Shown in pieces: positions 54,631-55,772 of a stretch of DNA of 55,772 bases. The position numbers and the translations under genes were made by a program. How positions within the stretch are numbered: position 1 is the first letter of the stretch; the number at the start of each line of letters is the position of its first letter. This DNA is from an uncultured Negativicutes bacterium. Its GTDB lineage: Bacteria > Bacillota > Negativicutes > Acidaminococcales > Acidaminococcaceae. The DNA lies in NCBI GenBank assembly GCA_947074185.1, contig CAMTOO010000004.1, positions 1 through 55,772 on the forward strand. Direction: 5' to 3'. The notes beneath the pieces are model-generated. The model was not told the origin of the DNA, made no database searches, and saw only the letters and a list, made by a program, of their open reading frames with translations.

Positions 54631-54668
54631 AATAAGCTAAATCTTTCGAGGTTTAGCTTATTTTTTTT
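54631..54668. terminator. Terminator of the thioredoxin gene
   Basis: taagctaaat and gtttagctta pair in a stem with a short loop and a run of eight T. Confidence 0.82.
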
Positions 54669-55662
54669 GCCCATCAAACCAAGCGCGAATAATAGTATCT
54701 TTTTCTTCTGACATCCAAGCTAGATCATCTATAGGGGTTTGGCACTCTTTAGCAGTCCCTGTTTCATTTTTACTTACATAAATAGATTTTCTACCTTGAT
54801 TATCTAGAAGCAAATTTTGCCCAGTTTCACCTAATAAAAATTCTAGGAATTTTTCGCCATTGCGTCTATTCTTGCTAATACGTAATAAAGCTACACCTGT
54901 AACCATATTTTTATTAATTTCCCTAGGAAGCGCTACCTTCAAGTTAGTGTATTTTCGGGCAGTTCTAAAAGCAATCTCCGATGGCAAAACAGCTATAGTT
55001 TTTTCTCCATTATAGACCATAGCAATTGCTTCCCCTTGATTTTCAACATATAACGGTTCTTGGGTTCTAAGCGCTCTTGCATAATCTAAAGCAGTATCCT
55101 GCCCTAATAATTGCCAAGTCGAAGTTATTAGCCCATAAGTTGCTCCACTTACTTCAGGTTTTACTAATACCGTTTCTTTAAATAGTACTGGTTCCAATAA
55201 ATCTTCCCATTTATCTATTTCCGACAACCTATATTTTGCTAAATTAGCTTTATTTACTAACAAGGTTATATTATTAATATAAATAGGAGTCCAACGACCT
55301 TCTAAGTCACCAATTTCTGGATCTTTAATTGAGCTTTCAGCATATTGATAAGGTACCAACATTTTTTCTCTTGCTGCCATATAATACTCTTCTGCGGTTC
55401 CACCTAACCAAACATCATAATCTTTTTGAGCAATTAGTTTTAGTCTTTCAGCTAAAGGTATAGCAGGAAGATAAGCAACTTCTACTTTTATATCTTCTTT
55501 ATCTGTAAATTCTTTTATAAGATTATCTGTTTCTACTTTCCCTAAACTACTACAAATTATTACTTTATCTGTAGCTTTGGAGTTTGCAAAACTATCTACA
55601 GAAAGACAACCTATATATATCAATACCATAGCAACAATGCTACCTAATATTTTAATTCGCAT
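54658..55662 (-). CDS. Periplasmic solute-binding protein of an iron(III)-type ABC importer
   Basis: The 334-residue protein has a signal peptide (about 1-27) and the type II binding-protein pattern: VIICSSLGKVETDNLIKEF, YDVWLGGTAEEYY, RWTPIYINNITLLVNK and GVALLRISKNRRNGEKFLEFLLG in separate stretches. Family members carry iron, 2-aminoethylphosphonate or organic ligands; the tyrosines of ferric-binding proteins are not clearly in place. Its permease and ATPase genes are not seen because the natural sequence ends at about 55718. Confidence 0.85.
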   Translation of the reverse strand: MRIKILGSIVAMVLIYIGCLSVDSFANSKATDKVIICSSLGKVETDNLIKEFTDKEDIKVEVAYLPAIPLAERLKLIAQKDYDVWLGGTAEEYYMAAREKMLVPYQYAESSIKDPEIGDLEGRWTPIYINNITLLVNKANLAKYRLSEIDKWEDLLEPVLFKETVLVKPEVSGATYGLITSTWQLLGQDTALDYARALRTQEPLYVENQGEAIAMVYNGEKTIAVLPSEIAFRTARKYTNLKVALPREINKNMVTGVALLRISKNRRNGEKFLEFLLGETGQNLLLDNQGRKSIYVSKNETGTAKECQTPIDDLAWMSEEKDTIIRAWFDGQKK

Positions 55663-55718
55663 TTTTCACCTCATTAATTGCTATTATATCAAAATATCCC
55701 AAATAAAAAAACTGTTAC

Positions 55719-55772
55719 AGATCGGAAGAGCGTCGTGTAGGGAAAGAGTGTACGTCCTGGTTTAGATATCGG
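55719..55772. other. Illumina TruSeq adapter, not genomic
   Basis: From 55719 the sequence AGATCGGAAGAGC continues as the reverse complement of the TruSeq universal (read 2-side) adapter up to 55751. Positions 55752-55759 read ACGTCCTG, the complement of i5 index D507, and 55760-55772 match the P5 flank with two differences. A reading frame that runs into it translates as IGRASCRERV, a known mark of adapter contamination. It should be trimmed. Confidence 0.97.

Follow-up and report, generated by a model that had tools for sequence, protein, structure and literature searches.

Among described systems, the closest counterpart of the sequence analysed here is read-through of an Illumina TruSeq HT dual-index library, in which the adapter, the complement of the i5 index and the P5 flank are expected in a set order and at a set spacing. 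The comparison used the TruSeq read-2 adapter and the P5 flank (GTGTAGATCTCGG), the flank being about 29 nt long; the kit names that apply are D507, for the i5 index CAGGACGT, and D705. Similar material occurs in deposited records: blastn located part or all of the tail described below in 15 of 50,697 phage records and in 1 of 72,556 plasmid records, and 9 of the 15 phage matches lay, by the coordinates listed, within 200 bases of the record end. Unlike the tail studied here, several of the deposited copies are internal, and 7 of the 15 phage records have a gene annotated across the adapter, among them genes called as endonuclease, tail fibre and hypothetical protein. Among the literature matches listed for adapter contamination of assemblies, no title or opening of an abstract concerned this genome or this tail. 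The index CAGGACGT is number seven among the eight i5 indices in the excerpted text of PMC7465061, and likewise in that of PMC6481090. PMC8229767 was rejected as index evidence, since there CAGGACGT simply forms the first bases of a PCR primer.

The window, that is, the whole stretch of DNA analysed, is the entire contig C4 (positions 1-55772; 55,772 nucleotides) of a draft genome that comprises 82 contigs and 1,570,468 bases, its completeness being given as 100% and its contamination as 0.06%. Its last 54 bases (55719-55772) had been taken for a sequencing adapter in a sequence-only reading, and this was confirmed. The tail begins with the TruSeq read-2 adapter of the i5 side (55719-55751, plus strand; AGATCGGAAGAGCGTCGTGTAGGGAAAGAGTGT), which is exact at 33/33 bases: the first 13 of these, AGATCGGAAGAGC at 55719-55731 with 0 mismatches, form the sole exact copy in the window and are followed by another 20 bases of the same adapter. 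A valid 8-base i5 index then stands, as its complement ACGTCCTG, at the fixed adapter position (55752-55759, plus strand); this is the reverse complement of CAGGACGT, the index named D507, in line with the earlier assignment. The P5 flank starts directly after the index (55760-55772, plus strand; GTTTAGATATCGG), and 11 of its 13 bases match GTGTAGATCTCGG before the contig end cuts it off. The flank is thus present, as had been claimed, but not "most of" it, because 13 of some 29 nt is under half. Order and spacing of the three elements are those expected of TruSeq HT dual-index read-through, from which the tail shows no difference of substance; the two substitutions within its last 13 bases are as expected for a low-quality read end.

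If the 54 bases were real chromosomal DNA, their match to the adapter would have to be an accident, and nothing beyond their presence in the contig favours this. Taken by itself, the 13-mer AGATCGGAAGAGC carries little weight: when as many as 2 mismatches were allowed, 18 of 100 shuffles equalled the match count of the window. Adapter and index together form a run of 41 consecutive exact bases, for which hand arithmetic gives an expectation of about 1e-20 in a random sequence of 55.8 kb on both strands; such a run, index included, is not chance. Furthermore, the tail scored 98 when aligned locally with the adapter, against a maximum of 25 for shuffled contig ends (n=3,280). The stretch 55719-55772 is leftover Illumina TruSeq dual-index adapter and not bacterial DNA, an ordinary artefact of library preparation and assembly. 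We put the probability that it is untrimmed adapter reached by read-through at a fragment end at about 0.99.

The last gene of the window, which encodes an extracellular solute-binding protein of 334 aa (54658..55662, minus strand; SBP_bac_11 Pfam match, E 7.1e-16), is complete and untouched by the adapter. An ORF of 62 aa with a TTG start (55577..55765, plus strand) exists as the sequence-only reading had described it and is, as stated there, false: it covers the beginning of the solute-binding protein gene in antisense, then enters the adapter, which encodes its final ~15 residues, and it found no match in Pfam and NCBIfam. This ORF is spurious. The tail matters only for data hygiene: these 54 bases and the adapter on 9 other contig ends of the genome need trimming, and no gene should be called for the antisense ORF.

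A search of the genome itself with window positions 55500-55718 returned one other place, contig C48 (12041-12140, minus strand), in a match that ends 6 bases short of the end of that contig. In an ungapped comparison, window and C48 were identical at 90 of 100 positions up to 55718, as against 15 of 54 from 55719 on, which is about chance level, and at 55719 itself C48 has a C where the window has the adapter's A. Since C48 diverges from exactly 55719, the true base after 55718 is not the adapter's. By this comparison, the A at 55719 comes from the adapter and not from the genome, which fixes the junction at 55718/55719. The contig end is artificial, as had been proposed, the overlapping C48 carrying unrelated DNA from 55719; at the level of contigs, a genomic continuation past this position with the same bases was not seen. 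The ten mismatches within the overlap comprise 7 in the outermost stretch of C48 and 3 in the last 22 genomic bases of the window, and the identity of 90% rather than 100% probably reflects error-rich contig ends. The head of C50 behaved similarly when compared with the overlapping contig C13, agreeing with it up to the adapter start and then departing, give or take one shared A. A third overlapping pair, C76 and C25, was noisier; its junction could not be cleanly placed and the pair was kept out of the proof.

Three genes lie on the same strand of C48, and their translations read as a solute-binding protein, a two-part permease and an ATPase, which appear to make up an iron-type ABC transporter. 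The last gene of the window would stand fourth in this row, on the same strand. The order SBP1-permease-ATPase-SBP2 was found on one strand in 8/8 relatives examined (G001, G009, G012, G015, G017, G018, G022 and G024, taken from among the better matches), with SBP2 sharing 32-38% identity with the protein of the window; two of the eight carry a second copy of SBP1. Named relatives of the permease were mostly from Phascolarctobacterium, Succiniclasticum, Acidaminococcus and other Acidaminococcaceae, which makes this family the likely home of the genome. A search of the genome contigs with the solute-binding protein of the window as query found no relative. This order, conserved in all eight relatives, argues that C48 is the neighbour of C4 and not a stray repeat. 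We had considered C48 as a mere paralogous repeat; the gene order, together with an overlap that reaches to within 6 bases of the end of C48, ruled this out. Because C48 differs from the tail and the gene order makes it the neighbour, an origin of the tail in real chromosomal DNA is refuted; like tails on 9 further contig ends also speak against it, and the probability left to it is vanishingly small. To judge from overlap and gene order, the chromosome instead runs from 55719 into the reverse complement of C48. As a by-product, C48 can be placed beside C4, which gives back the SBP-permease-ATPase-SBP order of the relatives.

The last genomic bases of the window (55706..55718, plus strand) are one arm of a terminator-like hairpin that is cut by the fragment end, with the remainder on C48. 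There, the hairpin sits between the stop of the ATPase gene and the start of SBP2, and a T-rich stretch follows it; folded as RNA, it reached -16.2 kcal/mol (z-score -4.58), and 0 of 200 shuffles folded as well. Hairpins might favour short inserts or a loss of coverage and so place adapter tails, but this is doubtful, with one junction of ten folded. For read-through at a fragment end, the following course of events is proposed. A library fragment ended at window base 55718, its insert probably shorter than the read. Presumably it was read 2 that went beyond the insert and took in the adapter ligated to it, then the i5 index and some of P5. With adapter trimming probably omitted and coverage probably thin at this end of C4, the tail of a read would have become the final 54 bases of the contig. 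From 55719 the true chromosome passes via the hairpin into the apparently iron-type ABC transporter gene set of C48.

That the same tail might recur on other contigs had been suggested in the sequence-only reading, and it does. Stretches of 200 bases from each end of all 82 contigs (164 ends) were oriented outward and aligned to the adapter sequences of both the i5 and the i7 side, and adapter was found on 10 of the 164 ends with scores of 49-113, six of them i5 and four, the partner tails, i7. These were the tails of C1, C4, C52, C56, C75 and C76 and the heads of C11, C24, C28 and C50. The tail is not a mark of every end, as the remaining 154 scored at most 22, no higher than shuffles; the same contig ends read on the opposite strand reached at most 24. 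Short adapter-like terminal stretches at the tails of C44 (score 21) and C73 (score 19) fell within the range of the controls and were left uncounted. The i5 index complement ACGTCCTG is exact on the C4 tail, the C28 head and the C56 tail, and the i7 index ATTCAGAA on the tails of C1 and C52, while the C75 tail reads ATCCAGAA, one base off. The index stretch contains errors or is cut on C24, C50 and C76, and C11 stops short of it. Wherever the index is cleanly readable, the pair is the same. On these sequences, the simple reading of the shared adapters is one library with one index pair that was left untrimmed.

An internal chimeric ligation, with adapter between two genomic pieces, would also put adapter into a contig, and internal adapters do occur, for example inside contig C1 of another genome, G128. 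C4, however, stops within the P5 flank and has no genomic sequence after it, and all 10 adapter tails start no more than 127 bases from a contig end. The C56 tail covers positions 1-69 of the 70 in the adapter before continuing for 58 more bases, a pattern as expected for a read running off its template; by eye, the sequence past the adapter on C56 and C76 is noise-like. An internal ligation is thus highly improbable here, and read-through at the fragment end remains the preferred reading.

Adapter in other genomes was surveyed with a 30-base i5 pattern, allowing up to 2 mismatches, in 150 genomes including this one. Three of them carried the pattern: this genome at 4 places, G117 at the start of a contig and G128 within one; a control with the reversed pattern found none. 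In G117, another genome of the class, the same adapter stands at the start of contig C64 (L213 5-34). The copy in G128, a distant relative, lies inside the 1.36 Mb contig C1 from 854665 onward (L214 1501-1558), where unindexed adapter is followed by a poly-A run, and this contig may hold a false join at that point.

The opposite end of the window is also unreliable: positions 1-200 overlap the end of C24 in dovetail orientation with 79% identity over 179 bases. Across the genome, 80 of the 164 contig ends form 41 opposed pairs that overlap but are unmerged, with a median identity of 88%. This suggests that low-quality read tails were kept at contig ends, and trimming might allow many of the contigs to be joined. 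Several other pairs of contig ends share exactly 55 bases, the overlap to be expected from a de Bruijn assembly run at k=55.
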